From assembly GCA_900469625.1 (NCBI GenBank), contig UBXV01000007.1, forward strand, positions 248,001 through 312,000: a stretch of DNA of 64,000 bases. Reading direction: 5' to 3'. The stretch comes from Hyphomicrobiales bacterium (GTDB lineage: Bacteria > Pseudomonadota > Alphaproteobacteria > Rhizobiales > Rhizobiaceae). Of the stretch, positions 5,328-37,772 are shown one piece after another (the stretch's first letter is position 1; each line of letters opens with the position of its first letter). Under the pieces are notes generated by a model, which saw only the letters and a list, made by a program, of their open reading frames with translations, did not search any database and was not told the DNA's origin. Both the position numbers and the translations under genes were made by a program.

Positions 5328-7382
5328 TCAGCCGCGTGCGACTTTCTGGCGGGAATAGCTTTCGACCCGGGACCTCAGGGCGCGAAGATCGCCCTGAACC
5401 TTGGCAATACCGGCGCCATCCTCCGGCTCGACATCCCGGGACGGACGCATGGGCGGCGCGGCAGGCGTTACAAGCGCACGCGAGGCGAGATAGGCGGCAG
5501 TCAACGACTGCGCGTGATGAGCTGCCGGCGAAAAGGGCGGCGGCAGGTCGGCCTCGCGGATCGGCTGATCCTGCTCGTTGCGCGTGCGCGACAACGGGCC
5601 AGGATCCGGGTCCGTACCCGGCGCGGGCGGGTCGGGATCGACGGTCTCCGGCGGTACGCCTCTTGGAGCGGCAAACAGGCCGTTCAGGCTGCGGTAGACC
5701 CCGAGCAGGATGCCGAGACCAAGACCGGCGAGGAAACCGGCGATTGTTGCGCCGACGACGATGATCTTGCGCGACGGCCCCTTGGGCAACAATGCGGGCT
5801 CGGCCCGTGAGACGACACGGATGTTCTTGGTCGTCAGCTTTTCTTCCTCGCGCGTTTCGCTGGCGCGCTTCAGGAAGGATTCGTAGATTTCGCGGGTCGC
5901 AGCCGCATTTCTCTCCAGCTCGCGCAGCTCGACCATTTCACCGGACGAATTGATCTGGCGCGCTTTCTGCGCCGCAAACTGGCGGACGAGGTCCTGTTCG
6001 GCGCGCTCGGCGCGTTCGAGATCTGTTTGTGAGGCGGCAGCAATACGCCGCAGCTCATTGGCAATCTCGGCGCGGGAGGAATCGAGCGACTGCACGACGG
6101 CAATGCGCTGGGGATGACGGGGGCCAAGGCTTGCGTCGAGCGAGCTCAACTGCGCGCGGGTCGCCGCATACTGCTTGCGCAGTTCGGCAAGCGCTATCGA
6201 ACCGACCTCCTCGGGAAAGGCACCGGTCAAAACGTCGTCAATCCGGACCCGTCCGGAAACCTCGGCCTTGGCCTTGGCTTCGGCAATGCGATTGCGGGCG
6301 GCTGCAACCTGGTCGCTGAGGCTGAGCAATTGCTTGTCCGCGATCAGTTCGCCGCCTGCCCCAACGATGTCGTTGCGCGCCTTATACTCCTCGATCGCCT
6401 TTTCCAGAGTATCGAGCTCGGACTTGAGCTCGCCGATACGCTGGTCGAGTGCCGCGGTCGTCTTCTGGAAGAAGCCCGATTGTGCGGCCGTCTCCTCACC
6501 GAGAAACGTTTCGACCAGATGGTTCACGATCTCGGCGGATCTCTCCGGGCTTCGGCTTTCTGCCTCGACGATGGCAATGAACGTCTTGGGATCGCGCCAG
6601 ACGCGGATGGCGTCGCTGAGCTTCTGCAGCGTGCGGGGCGGCACCTCGCCGTCGGCAGCACCTGTGCCCGAAAACTCGGCATCGTTCCTGAGGTCGAGAT
6701 CACGGGCGACCTTCTCCATAACGGTGCGCGAGCGCAGCACTTCGAGCTGACTGTCCACAAGGGCAAGGATGCCTTCCGTCGCCAGCGATTGCTTGGAGAG
6801 GTCGGAATCGGTCAGCCGAACTTCCCGCGGGTCGATATAGAGCCGGCTCTCGGAAAGGTAGACGCTGGGTGTCGAAAGCGCGATCGCAACACCCGCGACT
6901 GCGCCGAGAACCGTCGTGGCGGCAATGACGTAGCGAAGCTGCCAGACGGAGCGAAGCACCGCCTTGAGGTCTATGAGCGGCCTGTCGCCGGGTGGCGGCA
7001 GCGTATTTCCGCCGTCGTTGCCGGACGCATCGCCGCCATCAAGCCATCGCGCCATCTTGGCGCCTGCGCCGCGAATACCGCGCTTCGGCTGCGGCCGGGA
7101 TGTGGCGCCACCCAGAGACGATTGCGTCTCGGGGCGGGATCGCGGCAATTGAGATGTCGCCGATGCTTGTGTCCGGGGCTGTGACGGCGGGCGCCCGTCA
7201 GCGCGCGGTTTCTCGGCGGCTTCGTCGGCCGCGGCATAGCGATTGAGCAACGACACGCCCGGGGATCCGCTTGGCGCGGCGTCCGGCCTCTGCGCTGGCT
7301 TCGGGTCTCGCGAACTCGCTGCTGCGATATCGAGCAACGATGCACGCGGAACCGGGCGTTTTTCGTCGTCGACGTTGAACAT
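5328..7382 (-). CDS. Wzz/GumC-family polysaccharide co-polymerase without kinase domain
   Basis: This is a 684-residue inner-membrane protein of the chain-length-determinant type. A proline/alanine-rich cytosolic leader of about 130 residues precedes the Wzz domain (LIDLKAVLRSVWQLRYVI), with TM1 at about 148-170. A long periplasmic coiled-coil region follows, then TM2 at about 540-562 and a 119-residue proline-rich tail. No Walker motifs or tyrosine-rich end are visible, so it lacks the BY-kinase part found in ExoP/Wzc. It would govern length or export of the glycan built by the nearby transferases. The start has only a modest GGGATAAG upstream. Confidence 0.82.
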   Translation of the reverse strand: MFNVDDEKRPVPRASLLDIAAASSRDPKPAQRPDAAPSGSPGVSLLNRYAAADEAAEKPRADGRPPSQPRTQASATSQLPRSRPETQSSLGGATSRPQPKRGIRGAGAKMARWLDGGDASGNDGGNTLPPPGDRPLIDLKAVLRSVWQLRYVIAATTVLGAVAGVAIALSTPSVYLSESRLYIDPREVRLTDSDLSKQSLATEGILALVDSQLEVLRSRTVMEKVARDLDLRNDAEFSGTGAADGEVPPRTLQKLSDAIRVWRDPKTFIAIVEAESRSPERSAEIVNHLVETFLGEETAAQSGFFQKTTAALDQRIGELKSELDTLEKAIEEYKARNDIVGAGGELIADKQLLSLSDQVAAARNRIAEAKAKAEVSGRVRIDDVLTGAFPEEVGSIALAELRKQYAATRAQLSSLDASLGPRHPQRIAVVQSLDSSRAEIANELRRIAAASQTDLERAERAEQDLVRQFAAQKARQINSSGEMVELRELERNAAATREIYESFLKRASETREEEKLTTKNIRVVSRAEPALLPKGPSRKIIVVGATIAGFLAGLGLGILLGVYRSLNGLFAAPRGVPPETVDPDPPAPGTDPDPGPLSRTRNEQDQPIREADLPPPFSPAAHHAQSLTAAYLASRALVTPAAPPMRPSRDVEPEDGAGIAKVQGDLRALRSRVESYSRQKVARG

Positions 7383-7523
7383 GACTTATCCCGCGGGTGC
7401 CGAGATGGCGAATTCCGAATAGTGAATTCAACCTAAGGAAACAGGGAAAACAAATGGTTAATTTTGACGAAAGAAACCGCCCTGCAACTTGTCGATCTCA
7501 CGCCTTATTAAACATTCCCGCAT

Positions 7524-8819
7524 ATGACGAGAAGGACTATTGGAAGCTCGACCTTGTTGCATCGCATCAAAGCGCTTTATCTTCGCCATCAGGCGCTTAT
7601 CCACGCCTACCTCTCCATGACGGGGGGCTCGGCGGGGCGCCTCATCCTGTCGCTCGCCTATTTCATCGCGATCGCCAATACGCTTGCCATCTCCGATTTC
7701 GGTCTCTTTGCCACCGCGTCGGCCGCCGGCATCATGATATCGAGGGCGCTGGCCTTCGGCTTCATGTCGCCACTCTACCGTGTGGCGACCGTCAAGCCGC
7801 TGCTCGTCGGCACCTATAGCGCCGGCTTTCTCGTCGGCGCGCTGCTTTCGCTGCCTCTGATCGCGCTTATCTGTACCGGCACCTACCTTGCGCTTTTCGC
7901 GCGCGACATGTCGGCCGGGACCTTTGCGGCCTTGATGGTTGCGGAGATCATATGCTGGCGCGGCCTCGAAACCGCGGTCATCGTTCTCAACGGCCTTGGC
8001 CGCTTCGGTCGCGGCGCCCTGCTCGTCGTCATCGCCACCGCCATCCGCACAGTTGCCGCCCTGCTCTTTGCACTGTCTGAGGCAACGACGCTCGCCGCCT
8101 GGTCGCAGTTCTATCTTGCCGCCAACGCCATCAGCCTTCTGGTCGCGCTCGCCTTGTTCTACCCGCGGGTGCGCCTTCGCTGGCAACCGCGCCTCTATGT
8201 GCGTCGCTGGGCTGATTCGGTTTCGGTCGCTGGCGCCGAAATCCTGTTCTACGTGCAGTCCGAGTTCGACAAGATCGTCGTGCTGGCGATCGGCGGCCCG
8301 GCCGTCTCCGGCGTCTACGCCATCCTGATGCGGCTCGCCGACCTCACCGCCCTGCCCGTGCGATCGTTCAACACGCTGCTCGTCCAGCGGATCATGCGCA
8401 CGCCGGATGCGATCGCGCGCTGGCCTGTGCGCCTGTCGATCGAGTTCGCGGTGGCGGCCGCCTCATTCGCGGCGATCGCCGCCATGGCGATCTATCTCGC
8501 CATTTTCCCGAACGGTCTTGGCCACAACGTGTCGGCCGCCGCACCGATCGTAGCGACGATCCTGCTGGTACCCTCGTTCCGCAACCTGATCGAATATCAT
8601 TCGGAGCTGCTCTACGCGACCGGACGCACGGTTCGACGCATGGCCAATCTGCTGGTCGCGGGCGTGGTAAAAGCCGGGCTGCTTTCGCTGCTTTTGACGC
8701 AGACCACCGATGTCGCAGCCTGGGCGCCGGCCCTCAACCTGATTTTCCTGGCGCTCTATCTCTTGTCCTTCGGCCTGACCTACACGGCGCTCGCCAAGCC
8801 GGCCAACCGGGTCATCTGA
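7524..8819 (+). CDS. O-antigen/polysaccharide flippase-like membrane protein
   Basis: This is a 431-residue, almost entirely hydrophobic protein with about 12 membrane segments, resembling Wzx/PST-type exporters that flip lipid-linked oligosaccharides across the inner membrane. Basic loops and patterns such as LYATGRTVRRMANLLVAGVV fit the family. It is divergent from the Wzz-like gene and convergent with the DUF6492-like gene, ending 12 bases from that gene's stop. The start at 7524 has no good Shine-Dalgarno; a start near 7617 is possible. The substrate is unknown. Confidence 0.72.
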   Translation: MTRRTIGSSTLLHRIKALYLRHQALIHAYLSMTGGSAGRLILSLAYFIAIANTLAISDFGLFATASAAGIMISRALAFGFMSPLYRVATVKPLLVGTYSAGFLVGALLSLPLIALICTGTYLALFARDMSAGTFAALMVAEIICWRGLETAVIVLNGLGRFGRGALLVVIATAIRTVAALLFALSEATTLAAWSQFYLAANAISLLVALALFYPRVRLRWQPRLYVRRWADSVSVAGAEILFYVQSEFDKIVVLAIGGPAVSGVYAILMRLADLTALPVRSFNTLLVQRIMRTPDAIARWPVRLSIEFAVAAASFAAIAAMAIYLAIFPNGLGHNVSAAAPIVATILLVPSFRNLIEYHSELLYATGRTVRRMANLLVAGVVKAGLLSLLLTQTTDVAAWAPALNLIFLALYLLSFGLTYTALAKPANRVI

Positions 8820-8831
8820 GCCTGGTGAAGC

Positions 8832-9725
8832 TCAGGCGGCGAGTTCCACGACCGCCTTGCGAATATCTTCCAGATCGTGACCCACGAACGACTGCACGCC
8901 GATGCCGATCTGGTGCGGCGCCAGGTCATGAAGGAAGTCCCTCAGGCCGGCGATCCCCTGCCGATAACTGTCGTCGAACCAGAGCACATGGCAAAGCGCG
9001 TTGGGCGACGGCACGTGTCCCTGTCCACCCAGCACCTCGTCGACGAAGCGGCCGTAGATCGTGCATTCAGAGAAGGCGCGAGACGCGGTGACGGCGCGCA
9101 CCCAGTTGCGTCCGCTGAGCGCCTCGACATGCTCGATCAGCTTGCGGCAGGTGTCGCTGCGCCAGGCGATCAAGGTGTTGATGTAATCGTTGGCGGGAAG
9201 TGCATAAGGGCCGATACCGAGAAGACGGTCGGAATGCGCAAGCCAGGCCAGGTGGTTCGAGCGCATGTTCGCGTCGATCGCCGCATCCTTGCGATAGAGC
9301 GTCAGGCTGCCGTCGCACCAGAGCGTTGCCGGGTCGAAATCACGCAGGAAAACCACGTCGGAATCGACTGCGAACATCGCCGCTTCATCTATATGCCGCG
9401 CAAGCGACAGACGACGGAGCTGCTGCACATGCCAGCCGCGCAACGGCAGGCCGAACGGGGTCAACCAGATTTTCCGGCGCCCGCCTGAAAAGGGGTCGGA
9501 AACGGGATGCAGCCACCGGGGCAAGAGATCGCGTTCGCTCACGACCTGCCTGCGCGCGCCCTCGAGCTGCCGGAACAGCGTGACGTCGAAGTCGGCGACC
9601 AGCAGATAATGCATCCAGTCGCCCTGCAGCCGGCGATCCATGCTCTCGCACATCAGGCGACAGCGTTCGAAGTCGTTGGCATAGGACGCAGTGACGACTG
9701 CGGTTCGCGTGGAAGGACGGGTCAA
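8832..9725 (-). CDS. DUF6492-like protein, putative glycan-related transferase
   Basis: This is a 297-residue soluble protein with a GT-A-like look: the N-terminus TAVVTASYANDFERC, a central FAVDSDVVFLRDFD resembling a DxD metal/nucleotide-sugar site, and no membrane segment. It resembles proteins annotated DUF6492. The start appears to be a TTG at 9725 overlapping the WecG-like stop as TTGA, with GGAGCG upstream; this overlap argues for coupled translation. It is the last gene of a three-gene transferase operon. Activity and substrate cannot be told from sequence. Confidence 0.7.
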   Translation of the reverse strand: MTRPSTRTAVVTASYANDFERCRLMCESMDRRLQGDWMHYLLVADFDVTLFRQLEGARRQVVSERDLLPRWLHPVSDPFSGGRRKIWLTPFGLPLRGWHVQQLRRLSLARHIDEAAMFAVDSDVVFLRDFDPATLWCDGSLTLYRKDAAIDANMRSNHLAWLAHSDRLLGIGPYALPANDYINTLIAWRSDTCRKLIEHVEALSGRNWVRAVTASRAFSECTIYGRFVDEVLGGQGHVPSPNALCHVLWFDDSYRQGIAGLRDFLHDLAPHQIGIGVQSFVGHDLEDIRKAVVELAA

Positions 9726-10534
9726 TACTTTCGCGCTCCGAGGCTGGCCTTGCCGACGCTCTTGCGAGCTTTGCCCGACAGCTTATGACGGGCGACATGA
9801 AACAAGAACAAGGGATTACCGACGATATAGCGCCGCCACAGGCGCTTCGGCTCTAGGAAGAGCCGGTAAAGCCACTCGAGCCGGAGCCTGCGAACAAGCT
9901 TTGGCGCGCGCGGAATGGCGTGAGCGACGAAATCGAACAGCGCGCCGACGGTGATCACCAGTCGGGCATCCTGCGCGCCGACATGGGCATCGACCCATTT
10001 CTCCTGCATCGGACTTCCCATGGCAACGATGAGAATGTCGGCCCGGCAAGCCCGCACCGCCGCAAGGATCTCCCCGGAGCGGCTTCGATCGAAGAAGCCG
10101 TGCGATATGGGCAAGAATTCGTGCCAGGGCGCATGTTTGCCCAGGTTCTCGGCTGCGCGTGCCAGCACCTCCGGCCGCGCGCCGATCATCGCGACCCGCA
10201 GCGGACGCTCGATATAGGTCAAGAGGCCCGGAACGAAATCGGTTCCGTTCAGGTTGGCCGGAAACATGTCGCCGTGGAACACATAGGAGGCGATGTCGAC
10301 GCCATGGCCGTCGGGAAACACGACCTGCCGGCGCAACACCTCCTGGTACTCCGCATCTTCCATCATCAGGTTGGCGTTGTTGGCGTTCAGAAAGGCGATC
10401 CTGACCTGGCCGGCCGGGCTGCATGCCGCTTCGCTGGCAAATTCGAACGCATTCGCCCAACCGGGATCGGCTACGGGAACACCGAGGATCATCCGCTGGG
10501 ACAGCGCAATGTTGTTTGCGGCGGCGACAGCCAT
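9722..10534 (-). CDS. WecG/TagA/CpsF-family glycosyltransferase
   Basis: This is a 270-residue membrane-associated glycosyltransferase of the GT26 family, which adds the second sugar to a lipid-linked precursor. The diagnostic pattern is visible: FLNANNANLMM, VVFPDGHGV, IGARPEVL, ADILIVAMGSPMQEKWV and VGALFDFVAHAIPRAP, then a basic C-terminus for membrane contact. It lies two bases after the upstream glycosyltransferase stop and overlaps the next gene by four bases, so the three are one operon. A similar transferase acts in unipolar polysaccharide synthesis in related bacteria; which polymer is made here is unknown. Confidence 0.85.
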   Translation of the reverse strand: MAVAAANNIALSQRMILGVPVADPGWANAFEFASEAACSPAGQVRIAFLNANNANLMMEDAEYQEVLRRQVVFPDGHGVDIASYVFHGDMFPANLNGTDFVPGLLTYIERPLRVAMIGARPEVLARAAENLGKHAPWHEFLPISHGFFDRSRSGEILAAVRACRADILIVAMGSPMQEKWVDAHVGAQDARLVITVGALFDFVAHAIPRAPKLVRRLRLEWLYRLFLEPKRLWRRYIVGNPLFLFHVARHKLSGKARKSVGKASLGARKY

Positions 10535-10536
10535 CG

Positions 10537-11766
10537 TCAGCGCCCTCCGTCGTGAACAGTCCAGCGAGGCTGAGAACCGCGCGCCGTTCTGCCGCCCACA
10601 CCATCGGAGGCGAGACCGGGCAACACATCGCGCATCACCTGCATCATCCGGCTCTTCTGGGCCTGGTGGAACAGGGTCCCGTCCGCGCGTTGCGACGCGC
10701 CTGCCCGAACGCGGTCCACCTTTTCAGCGAGCCGACGCGCGAACTCCCGCGGATCATCGGTCGTCACGCAATTGTCCGGGACCGCGTCGATGCCGCGCAG
10801 CGAAGCGCTGGTGGCGACTGAGGGTATGCCGAGTTCAAACGTCTCGATGCTTTTCAGCTGCACGCCGGTGCCGCCGCGGCTGATCAAAGGCACCACGCCG
10901 CTCGCTGCCACGAACGCACGTGCATCCGGCACCCGGCCGACGAAGCGCAGACCCGGGTGCGAAACAGCTGGCGTTCCCTCGAGTTGCCCGGCAACCGCGA
11001 TCGACATGTCCGTCGGCAGATGCGGCACGACCTCGTCCAGAAACCAATCCAGCCCGAGCCTGTTCGGCCGCCAGCTCCACGTGCCGATCAGGCCAAGGTC
11101 GTGCTCGCGCGCAACAACGGGGCATGTCGGTGCGGCCCAACCGGTAACCAGCGGCAGCACGAAAGCCCGGTCAGCGACCGCCCGACCGAAACCGAGACGA
11201 TCCGCCTCGGCAAACGTCCACAGGGCCACCGCGTCCTGCGCCAGTTGCTGCTCGTAGCGTTCGAGGTAATAGGCCTCTCGCCTGAACAGGTAGCGCTCGA
11301 ACGCCCCTTTGGCGCGCTCGGCGTTCTCCAGTGCGGAATTTGCTTCGACATTGTGCGCGACGTAGATCGAGGGATAGGGCCGGAAGACCTGCGCGAAGGC
11401 CGCGGGCAGTTGCACCGAATTGAGCACCACGCCGTCGAAGGGTGCGAGACCGTCCAGGATCGACTGGATCCGGCCGGCCGATACGCCGAGCATCTTGGCG
11501 GATGACACGGATGTCCTGTTGAGAAGGGCAGTCGCGAGCCAGCGCGACTTCTGCAGGCGGCCAACCTTGGCATTGGTCACCTCGAGCTCGCCAAGGAGGT
11601 GCATCTGGCAACCCGGCGCTGGCGCGCGGCCAGGCTGCAGGAATCCGACGACGCTGACCCGATGACCGAGCGCGACGAGACCGTCAAGCAGCGCGCGGTT
11701 TGCGATATCGAACCCGGAAGCGGGATTTTCGACGGGAACGAGCGAGGAAACCAGGATCAGATGCAT
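10537..11766 (-). CDS. Glycosyltransferase, GT-B fold (GT4-like)
   Basis: This is a soluble or peripheral GT-B glycosyltransferase of about 409 residues. The N-terminus MHLILVSSLVPVENPASGFD is the usual first Rossmann strand and glycine-rich loop. The C-terminal half has LRFVGRVPDARAFVAASGVV and ISRGGTGVQLKSIETFELGI, the nucleotide-sugar-binding region with its conserved glutamate. I place the start at 11766-11764 where homology begins, but no clear Shine-Dalgarno is present and starts at 11781 or 11841 are possible. It is first in the operon with the WecG-like and DUF6492-like genes. Confidence 0.8.
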   Translation of the reverse strand: MHLILVSSLVPVENPASGFDIANRALLDGLVALGHRVSVVGFLQPGRAPAPGCQMHLLGELEVTNAKVGRLQKSRWLATALLNRTSVSSAKMLGVSAGRIQSILDGLAPFDGVVLNSVQLPAAFAQVFRPYPSIYVAHNVEANSALENAERAKGAFERYLFRREAYYLERYEQQLAQDAVALWTFAEADRLGFGRAVADRAFVLPLVTGWAAPTCPVVAREHDLGLIGTWSWRPNRLGLDWFLDEVVPHLPTDMSIAVAGQLEGTPAVSHPGLRFVGRVPDARAFVAASGVVPLISRGGTGVQLKSIETFELGIPSVATSASLRGIDAVPDNCVTTDDPREFARRLAEKVDRVRAGASQRADGTLFHQAQKSRMMQVMRDVLPGLASDGVGGRTARGSQPRWTVHDGGR

Positions 11767-11922
11767 TGTGCCACACGTCATGGATGGAGCATTAAAGCCA
11801 TCTTTAACAGGGTGCGGTGAAGGACGGCTTAAAGTCTTCATTCAAAAGTCGTTTTACCGGTTCAGTATCTGTTTAGGAAGATTTGGTTTAGTGGGCCGCA
11901 GCGATCCGCTTGCACAGGTTTT

Positions 11923-12915
11923 ATGATGACGTCGATCGGCCAGGATATTTCCATCTCTTTCCGAACCGAGTTGGAAGACGCCGGTGACATCGAGCTTGTC
12001 GTCGTCATGCCGACTTTCCGTCGACCCGAACATCTCATCAAGACGTTGAAAACCATTGTTTCCCAAAGGCCTGACGTCGCCTTTGCCACCGTTGTCGTCG
12101 AGAACGACAACGAAGGTCTTGCAGGTACCGCCGCCGCCAAGGACTTCTTTCTCGGGCACCCCTCAGACTCGCTCGTCATCATCGCCCACCAGCGCGGAAA
12201 CTGCCACGCCTACAATGCCGGCTTTGCGATGGCGCTCGAAACCTACCCCAACCTGCAGGCCATCGCGATCATCGATGACGACGAGATCGCGGCGCCAGAA
12301 TGGCTCGATTGCCTCGTCGCGGCACAACAGGCGACTGGTGCCGACATGGTGGGCGGTCCGCAGCTGCCGGTGTTCGAGGATGCCGGCGGGCAGAAATGGA
12401 AGCGTCATCCGGTCTTTACGCCTCACTACGAGACAACCGGACCCGTGCCCATCCTCTTTTCCTCAGGCAATGTGCTTGTAACGCGCCGGGTTCTCGATGC
12501 GGTGCCGCGCCCGTTTCTCGATCCGGCCTTCAACTTCATCGGCGGCGGAGACGCGGATTTCTACAGCCGATGCAAGGCGCAAGGCTTTACCTTTGCCTGG
12601 TCGAAGGAGGCGTGGGTCGCCGAAACGGTGCCGGGCCGGCGCACCAGCGCCTCGTGGGTCAGGGCGCGCAGCCTTCGAAACGGCGCGATCTCGACGATGC
12701 TCGAACATCGGCGCGACCCGAGCTTCGGTGGACGCGCAAGGACCTTGGGGAAATCGCTTGCACTGCTGGCAGCCGCGTTGCCGCGCGGTGTCAAACTCTG
12801 GAGAAAGACCGGCCTGCTTTCGGCCGGCTTCTACCACTTCTACGTCGCTGTCGGGCGGCTGATGGCAGAGGCGGGCCTGGTCAACGAGCAATACCGCAAT
12901 CCGGAAAAGAACTGA
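11923..12915 (+). CDS. Family 2 glycosyltransferase
   Basis: This is a 330-residue GT-A glycosyltransferase. It shows IELVVVMPTFRRPEHLIKTL at about residue 24, QRGNCHAYNAGFAMAL, the metal-binding IAIIDDDEIAAPEWL and the acceptor-side GGGDADFYSRCKAQG, all GT2 hallmarks. It is probably cytosolic with a C-terminal membrane-associated helix. It is divergent from the operon at 10537-11766 and ends seven bases from the stop of the first flagellar-side gene, so it marks the border between the glycan block and the flagellar region. The sugar donor is unknown. Confidence 0.82.
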   Translation: MMTSIGQDISISFRTELEDAGDIELVVVMPTFRRPEHLIKTLKTIVSQRPDVAFATVVVENDNEGLAGTAAAKDFFLGHPSDSLVIIAHQRGNCHAYNAGFAMALETYPNLQAIAIIDDDEIAAPEWLDCLVAAQQATGADMVGGPQLPVFEDAGGQKWKRHPVFTPHYETTGPVPILFSSGNVLVTRRVLDAVPRPFLDPAFNFIGGGDADFYSRCKAQGFTFAWSKEAWVAETVPGRRTSASWVRARSLRNGAISTMLEHRRDPSFGGRARTLGKSLALLAAALPRGVKLWRKTGLLSAGFYHFYVAVGRLMAEAGLVNEQYRNPEKN

Positions 12916-29819: not shown

Positions 29820-30785
29820 TTACTGCTGGAACAGGCGCAGGATATTTTCGGAGTTGGTGTTGGCGATCGACAGCGCCTGGATACCCAGCTGCTGCTGTGT
29901 CTGCAGCGCCTTCAACCGCGTCGATTCCTCGTTCATGTCGGCATCGACAAGACGCCCGACGCCCTTGTCGATCGTATCCATCAGGTTGGCGACAAAGCTT
30001 TCCTGCATGTCGATACGCTTGGTGATGGCACCGAGCGTCGAACCGGCGTCGGTCAGCTGACCGAGGATCTTGTCGACGACGCGGATCATCGCGTCCATCT
30101 CGGCCGGTGTGGTCGTTGCCGTCAGCTTGATTTCCGTGCCGCCAGTGCCGGTCGGCGGGATGACAATGAGGCGGTATGGTGCGGCGGTGCCCGTCGGGGT
30201 CTGCAACAGCTGGTCAGCGTCATAGTCCCGCGTCAGCAGGCCGCGCGCTGCACTGCCGGTGTCGATCAGCATCGATTGCGACGTGTCGAAGTCGAGCGTC
30301 GTGATCGACACATTGCCGTTGCCATCCCGGTTGAAGGAGGCGACGATCGACTTCGTTCCGACGGCTGCGGAATTGGTGTTGTAGAGCCAGTTTTCGCTGG
30401 AGAAGGATGCCGACTGGGCAGCCGACATGAGCTGGTTCTTCAGCTCGGTGATTTCCTTGTTGATCTTGAGCTTGTCGACGCCGGGCTCGCGCGCGGCCAC
30501 GAGCTTGGTCTTGATTTCAGTGACGACATCGATCGACGTCTTCATTGCGGCATAGGCGGTATCGACCTTTGCCGCACCGAGACCAAGCGCGTCCTGGACG
30601 GTGGACAGCGCGGCGTTGTCGGAGCGCATGGTCGTCGCGATCGACCAGTAGGCAGCGTTGTCTGCTGCGGTCTGAACGCGGTAGCCGGACGAGATCCGGT
30701 CCTGCACTTCGGCCATGTTGGTGTTGATCGAGCGCAACGTCTGGAGTGCGGCCATGGCGGCCGTATTGGTCATGATGCTGGTCAT
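29820..30785 (-). CDS. flaC: Flagellin (FlaC position), the most divergent of four
   Basis: This is a 321-residue flagellin with intact D0/D1 ends (MTSIMTNTAAMAALQTLRSI; QTQQQLGIQALSIANTNSEN, final ILRLFQQ). The middle is 12-15 residues longer and clearly different from the other three copies. The name follows the S. meliloti order flaA-flaB-flaD-flaC. It has its own 5' leader block at 30814-30861 and a separate downstream hairpin, so it is its own transcription unit. Confidence 0.9.
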   Translation of the reverse strand: MTSIMTNTAAMAALQTLRSINTNMAEVQDRISSGYRVQTAADNAAYWSIATTMRSDNAALSTVQDALGLGAAKVDTAYAAMKTSIDVVTEIKTKLVAAREPGVDKLKINKEITELKNQLMSAAQSASFSSENWLYNTNSAAVGTKSIVASFNRDGNGNVSITTLDFDTSQSMLIDTGSAARGLLTRDYDADQLLQTPTGTAAPYRLIVIPPTGTGGTEIKLTATTTPAEMDAMIRVVDKILGQLTDAGSTLGAITKRIDMQESFVANLMDTIDKGVGRLVDADMNEESTRLKALQTQQQLGIQALSIANTNSENILRLFQQ

Positions 30786-31161: not shown

Positions 31162-32085
31162 TTACTTGAACAGCGACAGGATGTTCTGCGAGTTGGTGTT
31201 GGCGATCGTCAGCGCCTGGATGCCGAGCTGCTGCTGCGTCTGCAGTGCCTTCAGGCGGGTCGACTCTTCGTTCATGTCCGCATCAACCAGCTTGCCGACG
31301 CCCGATTCGATCGAGTCCATCAGGTTGTCGACGAAGTCCTTCTGCAGGTCGACACGCTTGTTGACGGCACCGAGGTCCGAAGCCGCGTTGGTCATGCTCT
31401 GCAGAACGTTTTCGACGCCCGAGAGGTAGTTGGAGAGCGTCGTCGAGGTGACGCCGGTGCTGATGTCGAGCTTGAGGATGCTGACACCGGCGATCGCCGT
31501 GCCGCCCGAGTCCTTGAGATCGGCAGTCAGCAGGCCATTGGCGCCGGTGCCGTTTTCGTCAATCAGCATGGTCTTGGTCGTGTCGACGTCGAGCGTGGTC
31601 AGGCTGACATTGCCGGAAGCGTCGCGGTTGAACGAACCGACGATCGACTTCGTGCCCGGTGCAGTCGCGCCAGAGGCGGTGTAGAGCCAGTTTTCGCCGG
31701 AGAACGATGCCGACTTGACGACGCTCTGCAGCTGTTCCTGAAGCTGCTTGATTTCCTTCTGGACCTTGGACTTGTCAACGCCCGGCTCGCTGGCAGCGAC
31801 CAGCTTTGCCTTGATTTCGTCGACGACCGAGATCGCGGCCTTGAGGCCGGTGTAGGCGACGTCGGTCTTGGCAGCGCCGAGGCCGAGCGCGTCCTGGACC
31901 GTTCCGAGTGCCTTGTTGTCCGAACGCATGGTCGTTGCGATCGACCAGTAGGCGGCGTTGTCGGAAGCGTTGCCAACGCGGTAGCCGGACGAGATCCGGT
32001 CCTGCGTCGTTTCCATCGCGGAATTGATCGAACGCAGCGTGGAAAGTGCGGCCATTGCCGCGTTGTTGGTCATGATGGACGTCAT
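31162..32085 (-). CDS. flaD: Flagellin (FlaD position)
   Basis: This is a 307-residue flagellin, very similar to the copies at 32349 and 33531. It starts MTSIMTNNAAMAALSTLRSI and ends with the D0 element ALTIANTNSQNILSLFK. Differences from its neighbours are concentrated in the surface-exposed middle (about residues 165-205). AAGGGGCA lies upstream of the ATG. The final residue is K where the next two copies end in R. The letter is assigned by gene order only. Confidence 0.9.
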   Translation of the reverse strand: MTSIMTNNAAMAALSTLRSINSAMETTQDRISSGYRVGNASDNAAYWSIATTMRSDNKALGTVQDALGLGAAKTDVAYTGLKAAISVVDEIKAKLVAASEPGVDKSKVQKEIKQLQEQLQSVVKSASFSGENWLYTASGATAPGTKSIVGSFNRDASGNVSLTTLDVDTTKTMLIDENGTGANGLLTADLKDSGGTAIAGVSILKLDISTGVTSTTLSNYLSGVENVLQSMTNAASDLGAVNKRVDLQKDFVDNLMDSIESGVGKLVDADMNEESTRLKALQTQQQLGIQALTIANTNSQNILSLFK

Positions 32086-32348: not shown

Positions 32349-33269
32349 TTAACGGAACAGCGACAGGATATTCTGCGAGTTCGTGTTGGCGATCGTCAGC
32401 GCCTGGATGCCGAGCTGCTGCTGCGTCTGCAGAGCCTTCAGGCGGGTCGATTCTTCGTTCATGTCAGCGTCAACCAGCTTGCCGACGCCCGATTCGATCG
32501 AGTCCATCAGGTTGTCGACGAAGTCCTTCTGCAGATCGACGCGCTTGTTGACGGCGCCGAGGTCCGAAGCCGCGTTGGTCATGCTCTGCAGGACGTCTTC
32601 AACGCCGGAAAGGTAATTGGCAAGCGTCGTCGAGGTGACGCCGGTGCTGATGTCGAGGGTCAGAATGCTGACCGTACCGATGGCCGTGCCGTTCGTGCCG
32701 ACGAGGTAGTCGGTGAGCAGGCCATTGGTGGCATTGGCCTCGTCGATCAGCATCGTCTTTGTGGTATCGACGTCGAGCGTGGTCAGGCTGACATTGCCGG
32801 AAGCGTCGCGGTTGAACGAACCGACGATCGACTTCGTGCCCGGAGGCGTCGCACCAGAGGCGGTGTAGAGCCAGTTTTCGCCGGAGAACGATGCCGACTT
32901 GACGACGCTCTTCAGCTGATCCTGAAGCTGGTCGATTTCCTTCTGGACCTTGGACTTGTCAACACCCGGCTCACTGGCAGCAACCAGCTTCGCCTTGATT
33001 TCGTCGACGACCGAGATCGCAGCCTTGAGGCCGGTATAGGCGACGTCGGTCTTGGCAGCGCCGAGGCCGAGTGCGTCCTGAACAGTGCCGAGGGCCTTGT
33101 TGTCCGAACGCATGGTCGTTGCGATCGACCAGTAGGCGGCGTTGTCGGAAGCGTTGCCGACGCGGTAGCCCGAAGAAATCCGGTCCTGCGTCGTTTCCAT
33201 CGAGGAATTGATCGAACGCAGCGTGGAAAGTGCGGCCATTGCCGCGTTGTTGGTCATGATGGATGTCAT
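32349..33269 (-). CDS. flaB: Flagellin (FlaB position)
   Basis: This is a 306-residue flagellin, nearly identical to the flaD copy outside a central variable patch and an APPGTKS-type difference (SGATPPGTKSIVGSF here, SGATAPGTKS in the neighbours). It starts MTSIMTNNAAMAALSTLRSI and ends NILSLFR. AAGGGGCA is upstream. It is a separate unit, with its own leader at 33303-33346 and its own terminator at 32274-32306. The letter is by gene order. Confidence 0.9.
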   Translation of the reverse strand: MTSIMTNNAAMAALSTLRSINSSMETTQDRISSGYRVGNASDNAAYWSIATTMRSDNKALGTVQDALGLGAAKTDVAYTGLKAAISVVDEIKAKLVAASEPGVDKSKVQKEIDQLQDQLKSVVKSASFSGENWLYTASGATPPGTKSIVGSFNRDASGNVSLTTLDVDTTKTMLIDEANATNGLLTDYLVGTNGTAIGTVSILTLDISTGVTSTTLANYLSGVEDVLQSMTNAASDLGAVNKRVDLQKDFVDNLMDSIESGVGKLVDADMNEESTRLKALQTQQQLGIQALTIANTNSQNILSLFR

Positions 33270-33530: not shown

Positions 33531-34460
33531 TTAACGGAACAGCGACAGGATGTTCTGCGAGCTGCTGTTGGCGATCGAGAGAGCCTGGATGCCGAGCTGC
33601 TGCTGCGTCTGCAGAGCCTTCAGGCGGGTCGACTCTTCGTTCATGTCAGCGTCAACCAGCTTGCCGACGCCCGATTCGATCGAGTCCATCAGGTTGTCGA
33701 CGAAGTCCTTCTGCAGGTCGACGCGCTTGTTGACGGCGCCGAGGTCGGCAGCAGCGTTGGTCATGCTCTTCAGAACGCTGTCAACACCCGAGAGGTAGTT
33801 GGAGAGCGTCGTCGAGGTGACGGCAGTGCCGCTGATGTCGAGGTTCAGGACGCTGACGCCAGTGATGGCCGAGCCAGCGGAGTCCTTGATGTCGGCAGTC
33901 AGAAGGCCGTTCGTGCCCGAAGTGCTGGTTTCGTCGATCAGCATGGTCTTGGTCGTGTCGACGTCGAGCGTGGTCAGGCTGACATTGCCGGCAGCGTCGC
34001 GGTTGAACGAACCAACGATCGACTTCGTGCCCGGTGCAGTCGCGCCGGAAGCGGTGTAGAGCCAGTTTTCGCCCGAGAAGCCAGCGGACTTGACGACGCT
34101 CTTCAGCTGATCCTGAAGCTGGTCGATTTCCTTCTGGACCTTGGACTTGTCAACGCCCGGCTCGCTGGCAGCAACCAGCTTTGCCTTGATTTCGTCGACG
34201 ACCGAGATAGCAGCCTTCATGCCGGTGTAGGCAACGTCGGTCTTGGCAGCGCCGAGGCCGAGTGCGTCCTGAACCGTGCCGAGGGCCTTGTTGTCCGAAC
34301 GCATGGTCGTTGCGATCGACCAGTAAGCAGCGTTGTCGGAAGCGTTGGCAACGCGGTAGCCCGAAGAAATCCGGTCCTGCGTCGTTTCCATCGAGGAATT
34401 GATCGAGCGCAGCGTGGAGAGTGCGGCCATTGCCGAGTTGTTCGTCATAATAGAAGTCAT
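33531..34460 (-). CDS. flaA: Flagellin (FlaA position)
   Basis: This is a 309-residue flagellin. It starts MTSIMTNNSAMAALSTLRSI and ends LSIANSSSQNILSLFR. The ATG at 34460 is chosen because homology with the other three begins there and GAGGGACAG lies upstream. Compared with flaB and flaD it has more central changes (TSTSGTNGLLTADIKDSAGS) and a distinct upstream region. In S. meliloti FlaA is the principal flagellin and is required together with any one secondary flagellin. Confidence 0.92.
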   Translation of the reverse strand: MTSIMTNNSAMAALSTLRSINSSMETTQDRISSGYRVANASDNAAYWSIATTMRSDNKALGTVQDALGLGAAKTDVAYTGMKAAISVVDEIKAKLVAASEPGVDKSKVQKEIDQLQDQLKSVVKSAGFSGENWLYTASGATAPGTKSIVGSFNRDAAGNVSLTTLDVDTTKTMLIDETSTSGTNGLLTADIKDSAGSAITGVSVLNLDISGTAVTSTTLSNYLSGVDSVLKSMTNAAADLGAVNKRVDLQKDFVDNLMDSIESGVGKLVDADMNEESTRLKALQTQQQLGIQALSIANSSSQNILSLFR

Positions 34461-34865
34461 GAGACTGTCCCTCAAATTTACAAGGTTACACGGTGGGGGA
34501 CATACCGGACTGAATACGTCTACCGGCAATGACGGACCGGCTTCATGCCACTCGGCTCCATCCACTCAAGTGAAGGAAACCAAACCCGTCATGTGAGGGT
34601 GAATATCGCCCCCAATGCTTGCGATTTCATTAAGGCGGAAACAAATTTTCGAAGCAAAATCTTATGGTTAACAGTATGTTACTTTATCCGCACCCACTTT
34701 GCGGGACGTTCCTTTCGCCAATCGAGATCTATTGGCAAAGAATATGAAAATCGCTCAGCAATCCCGCCTGGGGCAAGGTTTCTGCTTCAAAACAGCACCT
34801 TGGCATATTGACGTTGCACAGGCTCGCGCGGTGACAACGGTAGCGCTTTTCCTACGGAGCTTCCT
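34461..34865. other. Divergent promoter region between flaA and the OGT-like gene
   Basis: This 405-base region is more AT-rich than its surroundings at about 34610-34800. It contains the flaA leader block at 34497-34549 and must hold the flaA promoter and that of the OGT-like gene. Short readings within it have no support as genes. Confidence 0.65.
34497..34549 (-). promoter_or_regulatory. Conserved flagellin 5'-leader block (flaA copy)
   Basis: On the minus strand it reads GGCATGAAGCCGGTCCG, then TTGCCGGTA, a longer spacer, and GTCCGGTATGTCCC, 37-90 bases before the flaA ATG. The outer and middle elements match the other three flagellin leaders although the rest of the flaA upstream region does not. 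Confidence 0.55.
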
Positions 34866-36779
34866 TTGAACGCCCACACCATCTTTTCTTCCGCTTCGCG
34901 GCAGTATCAAAAAGGCCAGTACACCGAGGCCCTTACCTCGCTCAACCAGTTGCTCGACCTCACCCGCGATGCCAAGACCTACGCGCTCTTGGCCAAGGTG
35001 CTGCTGAAACTCGGTTTCCGCAGCGATGCCGCGCAGGCCTATCAGCTGGCCGGTGAAGCCGGCGGGCTCCGTTCAGAGCATTTTCTGGCTGAAGCCATGA
35101 AGCTGCATTTCGCCTGCGGCAACGACGACGAGGCGCTCAGCCTCGGTCGGCCCCTGCTGGAACAGGCAAAGACCGATGCGGAGCTGGCCTACATCATCGC
35201 GACGCTGTTTTTGAAGCGCAACCAGTCGCAGCTTCTCGGCCCCTTCAAGACGACGCTCTCCATGAGCGCACAGCACGAGCATCAGGTGCTGGCCGCCAAG
35301 CTGCTGACCGCCGACATCGGCAACAGTGAAGACCGCGAAATCGTCACCAACCTCTTCCGTAGGTCGCCGTCCAACCTGGTTCTGCTTTCCGCCTACCTCG
35401 TCTTCATGCAGGAGGTGAACAACTTCGGCGAGATCGACAACTACGCACAGGCGCTGGAACGCGTCGTGCAGTCGGTCAATCCCAAGTTCTTCCGGGCCGA
35501 AACGCCGTTCTACAACATGCATTGGTGCCGCGACGAAGCGCTCAACCGCGTTGCGGGCGCGCTCGACAAACCGTTCGATCCGGGCCTGCCCGCGGAACGC
35601 CGCGCCATGCCGCATTCCTGGGGCAAGAAGATCCGGATCGGCTACCTCTCGAACGATTTCTGGGCGCCTCACGCGACCATGAAGCTCTTGAAGGCCGTTC
35701 TGACCGCGCATGACCGCGAAAAGTTCGACGTCACGCTGTTCTGCTATACGCCGGAGAAATACCTGCCTTTGGCCGGCGAAGAGCGCCAGACCTGGGGCAA
35801 GATCGTGCGTGTCGAAAACCTCTCAGACGAGCAGGCCGCGCAAGCGATCCGTGACGAACAGATCGACATTCTCGTCGACCTGAAGGGCCACACGATGCAC
35901 AGCCGGGTCGCCATTCTCAACTACAAGACCGCCCCGGTACAGGTCGCCTGGCTCGGCTTCCCCGGCACCACCGTCAACGTCGACATCGACTACATCATCG
36001 GCGACCGCTACGTCCTGCCCGACGCCAGTGCGCCACACTACTACGAACAGTTCTGCCGCCTGCCCGAGACCTACCAGCCGAACGATCCGGCTGGACGTCC
36101 GCGCCCCGCCGTCATGTCACGCACCGAGGCAGGCCTGCCGGAAGACGCCTTCGTCTACGCGTCGTTCAATGCCAACCGCAAGATCATCGGCGAAACCGTC
36201 AAGGCATGGGCCGAGATCCTGCGCCGGACGCCGGACAGCGTCCTGTGGCTGATGCGCCTCAAGCCGGAAGCCGAGGCGCATATCCTGCGCCGTTTCCAGA
36301 GCTACGGCATCGCGACGAAGCGCATCATCTTTTCCGAAAAGATCGAATACGAAAAGCATCTGGCGCGTATCCCGGCGGCCGATCTCGGCCTCGACACCTT
36401 CCCCTGCAACGGCCACACGACTACGTCGGAACAGCTGTGGATGGGTCTGCCGGTGCTGACGCCGAAGGGAACGCACTTTGCTTCGCGGGTCAGCGAAAGC
36501 CTGCTCAACGCAATCGGCCTGCCCGAACTCGTTGCCGCCGACGTCGATGATTACATCGAACAGGCGGTCGCCCTCTACAACGATCGCGACAGGGTCGCCG
36601 GCTACAAGCGGACGCTCGAAGACAACCGGCTGCGGACGCCGCTGTTCGATTCCGAGCGCTTCTGCCGTCACCTCGAGCAGGCTTACGAAGCGATGGCCGA
36701 GCGCGCCAGGGACGGGCTGGAGCCCACGCTCATCGACGTCCCGGCCCTGCCGGCGCGCACCGCCCCATTCGCGCAGTAA
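34866..36779 (+). CDS. TPR-containing OGT-type glycosyltransferase (GT41/SPINDLY-like)
   Basis: This is a 637-residue predicted cytosolic enzyme. The N-terminal 230 residues form helical repeats (TPR-like). The C-terminal half has the O-GlcNAc-transferase pattern: IRIGYLSNDFWAPHATMKLL with a likely catalytic histidine H269, DILVDLKGHTMHSRV, APVQVAWLGFPGT, VYASFNANRKI, and the nucleotide-sugar site FPCNGHTTTSEQLWMGLPVL plus FASRVSESLL. The start is a TTG at 34866 with GGAG seven bases upstream. It lies between fliP and flaA, divergent from flaA, and ends in its own terminator. Flagellin is the obvious candidate acceptor, but that is inference. Confidence 0.88.
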   Translation: MNAHTIFSSASRQYQKGQYTEALTSLNQLLDLTRDAKTYALLAKVLLKLGFRSDAAQAYQLAGEAGGLRSEHFLAEAMKLHFACGNDDEALSLGRPLLEQAKTDAELAYIIATLFLKRNQSQLLGPFKTTLSMSAQHEHQVLAAKLLTADIGNSEDREIVTNLFRRSPSNLVLLSAYLVFMQEVNNFGEIDNYAQALERVVQSVNPKFFRAETPFYNMHWCRDEALNRVAGALDKPFDPGLPAERRAMPHSWGKKIRIGYLSNDFWAPHATMKLLKAVLTAHDREKFDVTLFCYTPEKYLPLAGEERQTWGKIVRVENLSDEQAAQAIRDEQIDILVDLKGHTMHSRVAILNYKTAPVQVAWLGFPGTTVNVDIDYIIGDRYVLPDASAPHYYEQFCRLPETYQPNDPAGRPRPAVMSRTEAGLPEDAFVYASFNANRKIIGETVKAWAEILRRTPDSVLWLMRLKPEAEAHILRRFQSYGIATKRIIFSEKIEYEKHLARIPAADLGLDTFPCNGHTTTSEQLWMGLPVLTPKGTHFASRVSESLLNAIGLPELVAADVDDYIEQAVALYNDRDRVAGYKRTLEDNRLRTPLFDSERFCRHLEQAYEAMAERARDGLEPTLIDVPALPARTAPFAQ

Positions 36780-36820
36780 CAGGCGGAGGGGCCCTCCCCC
36801 TCGAAACAAGCGACATCAGG

Positions 36821-36846
36821 ACCCCGCCCTCGCCGGCGGGGTTTTT
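36821..36846 (+). terminator. Rho-independent terminator of the OGT-like gene
   Basis: ACCCCGCC pairs with GGCGGGGT around a 6-base loop and is followed by TTTTCG. It lies 42 bases after the stop, between two convergent genes. Confidence 0.88.
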
Positions 36847-37034: not shown

Positions 37035-37772
37035 TCAGCTGAACGAACGCACCAGGCTGCCGACGAGCAGGTTCCAGCCGTCGATGAGCACGAAGAAGAG
37101 AATCTTGAACGGGAGCGAGATTGCCGTCGGCGGCAGCATCATCATGCCCATGGCCATCGTGATGGTGGCGACGATCAGGTCGATCACCAGGAACGGCAGC
37201 ATGATCAGGAAGCCGATCTCGAAGCCACGGCGGATTTCCGAGATCATGAAGGCGGGAACGACGGCGCGCAGGTCGACCTTGTCGTCGACGACGACGGTCT
37301 GGCCCTTTTCCTTGGCGATATCGATGAAGAGTTGCAGATCCTTGTCACGCGTGTTGGCGAGCATGAACTCGCGGAACGGCTCGGTGACACGCGGGATCGC
37401 CTCGGTCTCGGTGATCTGGTTCTTGAGCAGCGGGTCGATGCCGTCACGCCAGGCGCGGTCGAAGGTCGGCGCCATTACGTAAAAGGTCATGAACAGCGCC
37501 AGCGACACCATGATCATGTTGGACGGCGTCGTTGCCAGGCCCATGCCCGTGCGCAGGATGGCAAAGGCGATCACGAAGCGCGGAAAGCTGGTGACCATGA
37601 TGAGGATGCCGGGCGCGACCGAAAGAACGGTCAGAAGGCCGAAGGTCCGGATGATCCACGAGGCGGCCGAGCCGTCGATGGGCGTGTTCAGGATGTCAGA
37701 GGGAAAGCTCTGTGCGCCGGCAATTCCGGACATCGCCGTCATGGCGACTATGAAGGCGATGAGCCGGATCAT
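37035..37772 (-). CDS. fliP: FliP, flagellar export-gate membrane protein
   Basis: This is a 245-residue core export-gate subunit. It has an N-terminal signal-like segment, TM segments, and the family signatures FPRFVIAFAILRTGMGLATT, VSLALFMTFYVMAPTFDRAW and FLVIDLIVATITMAMGMMML. Length is normal. It is the last gene of the long basal-body unit, eight bases after fliL. No fliO is seen next to it. Confidence 0.96.
   Translation of the reverse strand: MIRLIAFIVAMTAMSGIAGAQSFPSDILNTPIDGSAASWIIRTFGLLTVLSVAPGILIMVTSFPRFVIAFAILRTGMGLATTPSNMIMVSLALFMTFYVMAPTFDRAWRDGIDPLLKNQITETEAIPRVTEPFREFMLANTRDKDLQLFIDIAKEKGQTVVVDDKVDLRAVVPAFMISEIRRGFEIGFLIMLPFLVIDLIVATITMAMGMMMLPPTAISLPFKILFFVLIDGWNLLVGSLVRSFS

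Follow-up and report, generated by a model that had tools for sequence, protein, structure and literature searches.

What does a glycosyltransferase gene do between the flagellin and basal-body genes of a rhizobium, and is flagellin the protein that its product modifies? We addressed this for a 637-residue protein encoded in a 64,000-nucleotide stretch of DNA (the window) on contig C50 of a 6.54 Mb genome from an Ensifer relative. The original prediction, read from the letters of the window, was that a TPR-like N-terminus and a GT41 catalytic half form a cytosolic enzyme that O-glycosylates flagellin. Genomic linkage, catalytic motifs, clade structure and the analogy with FlmG of Caulobacter together suggest that the product of the gene is a cytosolic O-glycosyltransferase of the TPR-GT41 type devoted to flagellin, with a probability of roughly 0.77; sugar chemistry aside, the reading first proposed is thereby also the most likely one.

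Gene, locus and protein architecture

The open reading frame lies next to flaA at the position and length originally described, as an ORF search and Pfam scan confirmed, and runs from a TTG start to a TAA stop. The features of the locus are as follows.

34866..36779, + strand: TPR-GT41 glycosyltransferase gene (open reading frame, Pfam match, orthologues)
34866..35480, + strand: N-terminal helical TPR-like half, residues 1-205, putative acceptor-recognition module (TPR matches, weak structure model, divergence by context)
35628..36776, + strand: GT41 catalytic half, residues 255-637 (Pfam, alignment to OGT, profile search, Foldseek)
34856..34859, + strand: GGAG, Shine-Dalgarno-like, 5' of the TTG start (spacing constant in 15/15 named relatives)
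34766..34778, + strand: conserved element GCCTGRGGCAAGG upstream of the GT41 gene (in many Ensifer/Sinorhizobium carriers, at almost the same distance from the start codon)
36818..36845, + strand: terminator-like stem-loop of 11 pairs with a T-run, 3' of the GT41 gene (hairpin scan)
33531..34460, - strand: divergent flagellin gene in the flaA position, putative acceptor (Flagellin_N and Flagellin_C)
32349..33269, - strand: second flagellin gene, possible acceptor (Pfam scan)
31162..32085, - strand: third flagellin gene, possible acceptor (Pfam scan)
29820..30785, - strand: fourth flagellin gene, possible acceptor (Pfam scan)
37035..37772, - strand: presumed fliP, convergent neighbour bounding the GT41 locus (named by gene order and general knowledge of the family)

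The TTG start is credible because the corresponding codon is TTG in 12 and GTG in 3 of the 15 named relatives (ATG in none), with GGAG at a fixed distance throughout. Upstream, exact copies of the element GCCTGRGGCAAGG are present in 31 of 151 fetched loci; every one of these is a carrier locus, with the copy always ahead of the GT41 gene, and the window holds 15 near-matches to it where 4.0 are expected by chance. The gene had also been credited with its own terminator, and a stem with a T-run does follow it; such sites are close to chance in the region around the gene (7 found, 6.0 expected), so their count by itself proves nothing. On its right, the gene that we take to be fliP encodes a protein 91-98% identical across the Ensifer/Sinorhizobium carrier loci compared. 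To describe the surroundings as purely flagellar was an overstatement: from about 13.9 kb rightwards, in a scan up to the GT41 gene, the genes with Pfam matches are flagellar (some have no match), and transporter and folate genes occupy the window before about 5.1 kb. Between these, polysaccharide-type genes with Wzz, DUF6492, WecG/TagA, GT1-like and GT2 domains (5328-12915) adjoin the flagellar cluster.

Both halves of the protein were recognized as proposed. Pfam Glyco_transf_41 (PF13844) matches it in two stretches (E=1.9e-72; 244.7 bits, above the curated cut-off of 25), which places it in GT41, and it is the only GT41 gene that the same profile detects in the genome, again as two stretches of the 34866-36779 frame. 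TPR_11 matches residues 14-50 with E=7.1e-5, at 22.9 bits below the Pfam cut-off of 26.8, and a profile built from 22 relatives matches residues 4-130 to solved consensus TPR proteins. The nearest named relatives of the protein, from Ensifer adhaerens and its kin, are 84-85% identical. Against three relatives at that distance dN/dS (NG86) was 0.09-0.11, and against a 63% relative 0.31, rough values given a dS of 0.85-0.94; by this sequence measure the gene looks to be under purifying selection.

Linkage to flagellin genes among relatives

Across relatives, adjacency to a flagellin gene is a conserved property of the locus. In the window's own genus every genome (16/16) carries the GT41 gene, with a flagellin gene on one side and fliP on the other. 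The genus of S. terangae (Sinorhizobium) has it in 12 of 33 genomes, at 61-63% identity and always in the same place. Among 16 carriers from other genera, a flagellin gene is adjacent in 15, and fliP lies on the opposite side in 9, within the 1.5 kb flank examined; the exception, genome G011 (locus L106), is a member of the clade, yet the 14 kb of it that were fetched contain no flagellin gene. In total, 43 of the 44 carrier genomes of the clade examined are flagellin-linked, and flagellin-adjacent orthologues extend down to 44% identity in seven genus groups besides the genus of S. terangae. The flagellin link proposed from this one locus therefore stands, and the gene sits in the flagellar loci of relatives rather than being consistently absent from them.

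Distribution is nevertheless patchy. A sample of 297 genomes of the family gave some GT41 match in 77, of which at least 21 belong to the flagellin-linked clade (19 by the tree described below, plus L006 and L010 by close similarity to tree rows). The gene is missing from the remaining 21 of the 33 Sinorhizobium genomes. In 20 of them fliP could be located, and in 19 of the 20 a flagellin gene lies about 270-350 bases from it, a gap that leaves no room for another gene of such size (the other, L095, has no flagellin gene within 1.5 kb of fliP). The flagella of close relatives thus do without the GT41 gene. As a separate observation, none of the 33 genomes in the genus of G319 has both the flagellin-linked GT41, present in 12, and another GT41, present in 14; 7 genomes have neither. 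In six non-carriers (G328-G331, G333 and G343) some 53 kb separate the other GT41 from fliP, and in G323 and G342 it is far away; this mutual exclusion may simply reflect clades.

A conserved position could also mean co-regulation with flaA, with the enzyme acting on another flagellar or regulatory protein or regulating flagellin expression itself. Listeria GmaR is an example of an enzyme with such a second role as regulator of flagellin expression. The divergent arrangement with flaA is conserved and the GT41 gene has its own conserved upstream element, both of which would fit such a role, as would the LuxR-type or flagellar/type III ATPase-like gene that takes the place of fliP as the other neighbour in some relatives. 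Against this, flagellin is the constant neighbour across genera, and flagellins are what the functionally closest precedent, FlmG, modifies (PMC7591256). We consider a regulatory or other flagellar target unlikely.

Donor sugar and known glycosyltransferases

Flagellin O-glycosylation in a rhizobium is not quite new as a phenomenon, considering glycoprotein staining in Rhizobium leguminosarum and the FlmG enzyme precedent (PMC2936354, PMC7591256). The flagellins of R. leguminosarum, which resemble the present case in being rhizobial, were positive with a glycoprotein stain, and no enzyme is named in the passages concerned (PMC2936354); glycosylated filaments of Agrobacterium sp. H13-3 are likewise mentioned, as data not shown, in another study (PMC8310070). 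Among the papers listed from the open-access literature searched (preprints excluded), there was neither an Ensifer/Sinorhizobium flagellin glycosyltransferase nor work on the window gene. As a guess, SMc03036 is a possible S. meliloti counterpart; the name was not found in the open-access literature searched.

FlmG of Caulobacter crescentus (596 aa) is the closest system in overall design: it too is a single soluble polypeptide of comparable length that joins an N-terminal TPR half to a GT-B half. The TPR half of FlmG binds flagellin, and in the presence of pseudaminic acid the enzyme is both necessary and sufficient to modify flagellin (PMC7591256). Both proteins are alphaproteobacterial; the flagellin acceptor is demonstrated for FlmG and putative for the window enzyme (PMC7591256). 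By analogy, and comparing the two by description, the window enzyme probably works like FlmG (CCNA_01524). The domain plan of the FlmG class is present in the window protein. FlmG, however, needs pseudaminic acid made by NeuB (PMC7591256), and a PF03102 search of the window's genome found no NeuB, so on this count the window protein falls outside the FlmG class.

The absence of NeuB extends to all 15 named carriers and to 19 of 25 genomes in a second, overlapping carrier set; nonulosonic donors are possible within that second set, where the other 6 do have NeuB. An enzyme of the FlmG type using CMP-pseudaminic acid or another nonulosonic acid, which the shared overall plan and these six genomes would favour, is therefore improbable here, and nonulosonic acid was not supported as the donor. 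A CDP-deoxysugar was rejected as a general donor on similar grounds. The genome of the window has no CDP-glucose 4,6-dehydratase over the cut-off (best match 79 bits, cut-off 278), and the enzyme does not track the GT41 gene: it exceeds the cut-off in 33 of the 44 carrier genomes and in 16 of the 20 genomes that lack the GT41 gene. With neither NeuB nor the dehydratase in the genome, and neither tracking the gene, a common UDP-sugar is the likeliest and simplest donor. In the window's organism the donor is thus probably a housekeeping UDP-sugar, with UDP-GlcNAc as the first guess; CMP-Kdo is possible.

Some relatives do carry sugar-nucleotide genes at this spot. In G171 (L182), a co-directional rfbF-rfbG-rfbH-epimerase-rmlC series follows the GT41 gene and stays entirely on the flagellin side of fliP, with products assigned as glucose-1-phosphate cytidylyltransferase, CDP-glucose 4,6-dehydratase, RfbH, an epimerase-like and an RmlC-like protein (the first three and RmlC exceed NCBIfam cut-offs). 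In G140 (L187), rfbF and rfbG lie just past fliP, accompanied by genes for a GT2, a C-methyltransferase and a CmcI-like protein, and in G047, of the same genus group, a CDP-glucose dehydratase gene lies 3.3 kb from the GT41 gene, with a GT2 at the edge of the stretch. Among 189 fetched loci (1.89 Mb, overlapping, many with a 1.5 kb flank), such sugar genes were found at these three only. Two other genomes of the G171 genus group differ: G097 carries the GT41 gene of the clade but not the sugar island, and G231 has no gene of the clade. A sugar island beside flagellin genes is the expected look of a flagellin glycan pathway and adds weight to a role in flagellin glycosylation, though it is not general among carriers.

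Comparison with other glycosyltransferases places the catalytic half closest to OGT. Human OGT is the best solved relative by sequence (5.4e-60), with the Xanthomonas enzyme (XcOGT) further down, and both share the GT41 catalytic fold and motifs with the window protein. It differs from human OGT in a shorter and different N-terminal part, in a glutamate at the position of D925, and in its putative acceptor, flagellin. SPINDLY (SPY), a GDP-fucose protein O-fucosyltransferase, belongs to the same family and matched the profile at 239.6 bits, compared with 314.6 for OGT. The HMW1C/NGT N-glucosyltransferases gave a weak match in the catalytic half (NCBIfam NF049992: 47.8 bits against a curated cut-off of 1000), which places the protein outside that group. 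Maf flagellin glycosyltransferases have a like proposed role, cytosolic flagellin O-glycosylation, in an unrelated protein family; Maf PF01973 matched neither the GT41 protein nor anything else in its genome, and in controls it matched 4 of 14 genomes, all archaea.

Catalytic residues, acceptor choice and proposed role

Residues expected of an active OGT-like enzyme are retained. The alignment was read against these positions of human OGT: H498, K842, H901, R904, H920, T921, T922, Q839, K898, C917 and D925. The main aligned sites are these.

35670..35672, + strand: His269, aligned to human OGT histidine H498 (H in 21/21 flagellin-linked rows)
36180..36182, + strand: Lys439, aligned to human OGT lysine K842 (K in 21/21 flagellin-linked rows)
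36414..36422, + strand: His-Thr-Thr 517-519, HTT motif, OGT 920-922 (H/T/T in 21/21 flagellin-linked rows)
36429..36431, + strand: Glu522, aligned to OGT D925 (E in 21/21 flagellin-linked rows, D in 21/21 zinc-linked rows)

Histidine 269, named at the outset as the putative catalytic residue, aligns with the histidine of the GNHPT stretch of human OGT, and the suggested UDP-sugar site FPCNGHTTTSEQLWMG aligns with its CNGHTT motif, in line with both assignments. Equivalents of H498, K842, H901, R904, H920, T921 and T922 are all present in the window protein and invariant in the 21 flagellin-linked rows, except that the H901 position is H in 19 and Y in 2; R501 of the window protein is likewise unchanged in 21/21. 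At the sites that correspond to Q839, K898, C917 and D925 the residue is different or variable. A comparison of a predicted structure with OGT had been put forward as a further check; Foldseek matched SPY (the top match) and OGT alike, with low TM-scores, from a poor model (16 sequences, mean pLDDT 60.6, pTM 0.49), which consequently adds little beyond the sequence. Its N-terminal residues 1-110 form helix pairs at a pLDDT of about 80-92.

The family as a whole is not flagellar, since the homologues of the sister clade lie largely in zinc loci. In a tree of 73 selected GT41 rows (quick method, SH-aLRT support only, distant long branches unsure), the flagellin-linked rows fall in one clade with support 99, of 22 rows, 21 of them flagellin-linked and L106 the sole unlinked one. 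The tree left out the close carriers L006 and L010 and many matches of the 297-genome search, and its context labels come from our own query set. The sister clade (support 93) has 36 rows, including 21 from zinc-uptake loci (zur, znuC, znuA). These loci (L107-L111, L115, L116, L120-L128, L131, L132, L136, L137 and, beside zur, L114) encode full-length homologues (about 39-49% identical). The znuA gene is present in 20 of the 21; L114, where it was not found, was labelled by its zur and carbonic-anhydrase-like neighbours. A CobW-like gene lies in between at L107 and L127, and six zinc loci have an RcnB-like gene nearby.

The two halves of the protein diverge differently between these clades. 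Median identity to the window protein in the catalytic half is 59% for flagellin-linked and 56% for zinc-linked rows, and in the N-terminal half 38% and 23%. By these sequence comparisons the N-terminal half tracks genomic context, which fits a choice of acceptor by that half; alternatively, it may diverge simply by faster evolution. A profile search of 389 genomes of the class found a match in 133, and among the matches listed only those in the window's own genome and one other genome of the family began at the profile start. The N-terminal half as such was therefore not seen outside the family among the matches listed, all others of which began at position 51 or later. Outside the family, no flagellin gene was detected within about 1.5 kb in 28 class-wide GT41 loci (two family rows apart), and FlmG-like cases there may be missed because these were best matches only and the queries were the window's flagellins.

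More distant GT41 genes (35-38% identical in the catalytic part) have other neighbours again. Giant Ser/Thr-rich repeat proteins are encoded roughly 1-2 kb away from them at 13 of 14 fetched Sinorhizobium loci (L071-L083; the exception, L084, is on a 4.2 kb contig) and at L144. The repeat protein at L074 has 1687 aa, 27% Ser+Thr and 63 stretches of the ALTTAQ repeat (PF20080), and such a protein is the obvious candidate acceptor of the adjacent GT41; no mention of ALTTAQ was found in the open-access literature searched. At some loci GT41 genes stand in tandem: L140 has five, L135 three, and L130 and L133 have two each, with no flagellin match in the stretches fetched.

Among zinc-linked rows, the equivalent of H269 is S in 3 of 21, the HTT positions are altered in 3 to 4 of 21, and the first or second T of HTT is missing in 4 of 21 in the alignment, which suggests that some of these proteins are decayed or non-enzymatic, unless misaligned. 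The window protein could by extension be a catalytically idle TPR protein that serves as a flagellin chaperone or scaffold; its TPR-like half and such apparently idle relatives lend that idea something, yet the positions of H269, K439, R501 and the H-T-T motif are invariant in 21/21 flagellin-linked rows, and we regard it as very improbable. That the gene has no flagellar function and lies there by chance, as its patchy occurrence might hint, is scarcely credible given adjacency to flagellin genes down to 44% identity in so many genera and the signature of purifying selection.

The flagellins themselves were searched for marks of modification. Enrichment of Ser/Thr in carriers was rejected: among flagellins caught by pattern, Ser and Thr make up 0.21-0.28 of the central region in carriers, against 0.19-0.32 in non-carriers. 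Columns T163, T169, T172, T188 and S197 of the flaA product separate carriers strongly within Ensifer/Sinorhizobium, and outside these genera only T163 partly holds, as 9 of the 15 flagellins encoded next to the GT41 gene have T there; such carrier-specific columns are a lead only, as they are confounded by descent. Position 163 is T in 66 of 67 Ensifer/Sinorhizobium carrier flagellins (one gap) and K in all 18 from non-carriers. Thr163 is thus a candidate glycosylation site, on alignment evidence.

If the enzyme is indeed a flagellin O-glycosyltransferase, its N-terminal TPR-like half would bind newly made flagellin monomers prior to export, and its GT41 half would attach a single sugar to Ser/Thr residues, with the exposed central part of flagellin as the likeliest target. 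The sugar would come from a common UDP-sugar, UDP-GlcNAc again being the first guess, rather than from a nonulosonic acid. In some relatives, the CDP-deoxysugar genes and further transferases that have settled at or beside this spot may extend or replace the sugar. A wider scheme, which we put forward tentatively and hold to be doubtful, is a modular O-glycosylation system of the Rhizobiaceae. In it, much the same GT41 half would be re-aimed by a swapped or reshaped TPR half (at flagellin, at a zinc-uptake protein in the sister clade or, for the distant GT41s, at giant ALTTAQ-repeat proteins). The flagellin clade, with its D-to-E change in the nucleotide pocket, would have become independent of UDP-GlcNAc and nonulosonic acids, so that gene islands beside flaA could supply new donors such as CDP-deoxysugars.

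Phages use flagellin as a receptor, and plants perceive the flagellin of many bacteria as an immune signal. According to a review, however, the flagellins of most rhizobia have already diverged far enough not to elicit the plant response (PMC8429497); effects on assembly, motility or phage binding may therefore be more important than immunity. The split between carriers and non-carriers within Sinorhizobium is a ready natural comparison, and the flagellin-linked and zinc-linked sister clades offer, through their N-terminal halves, a handle on how an OGT picks its substrate.
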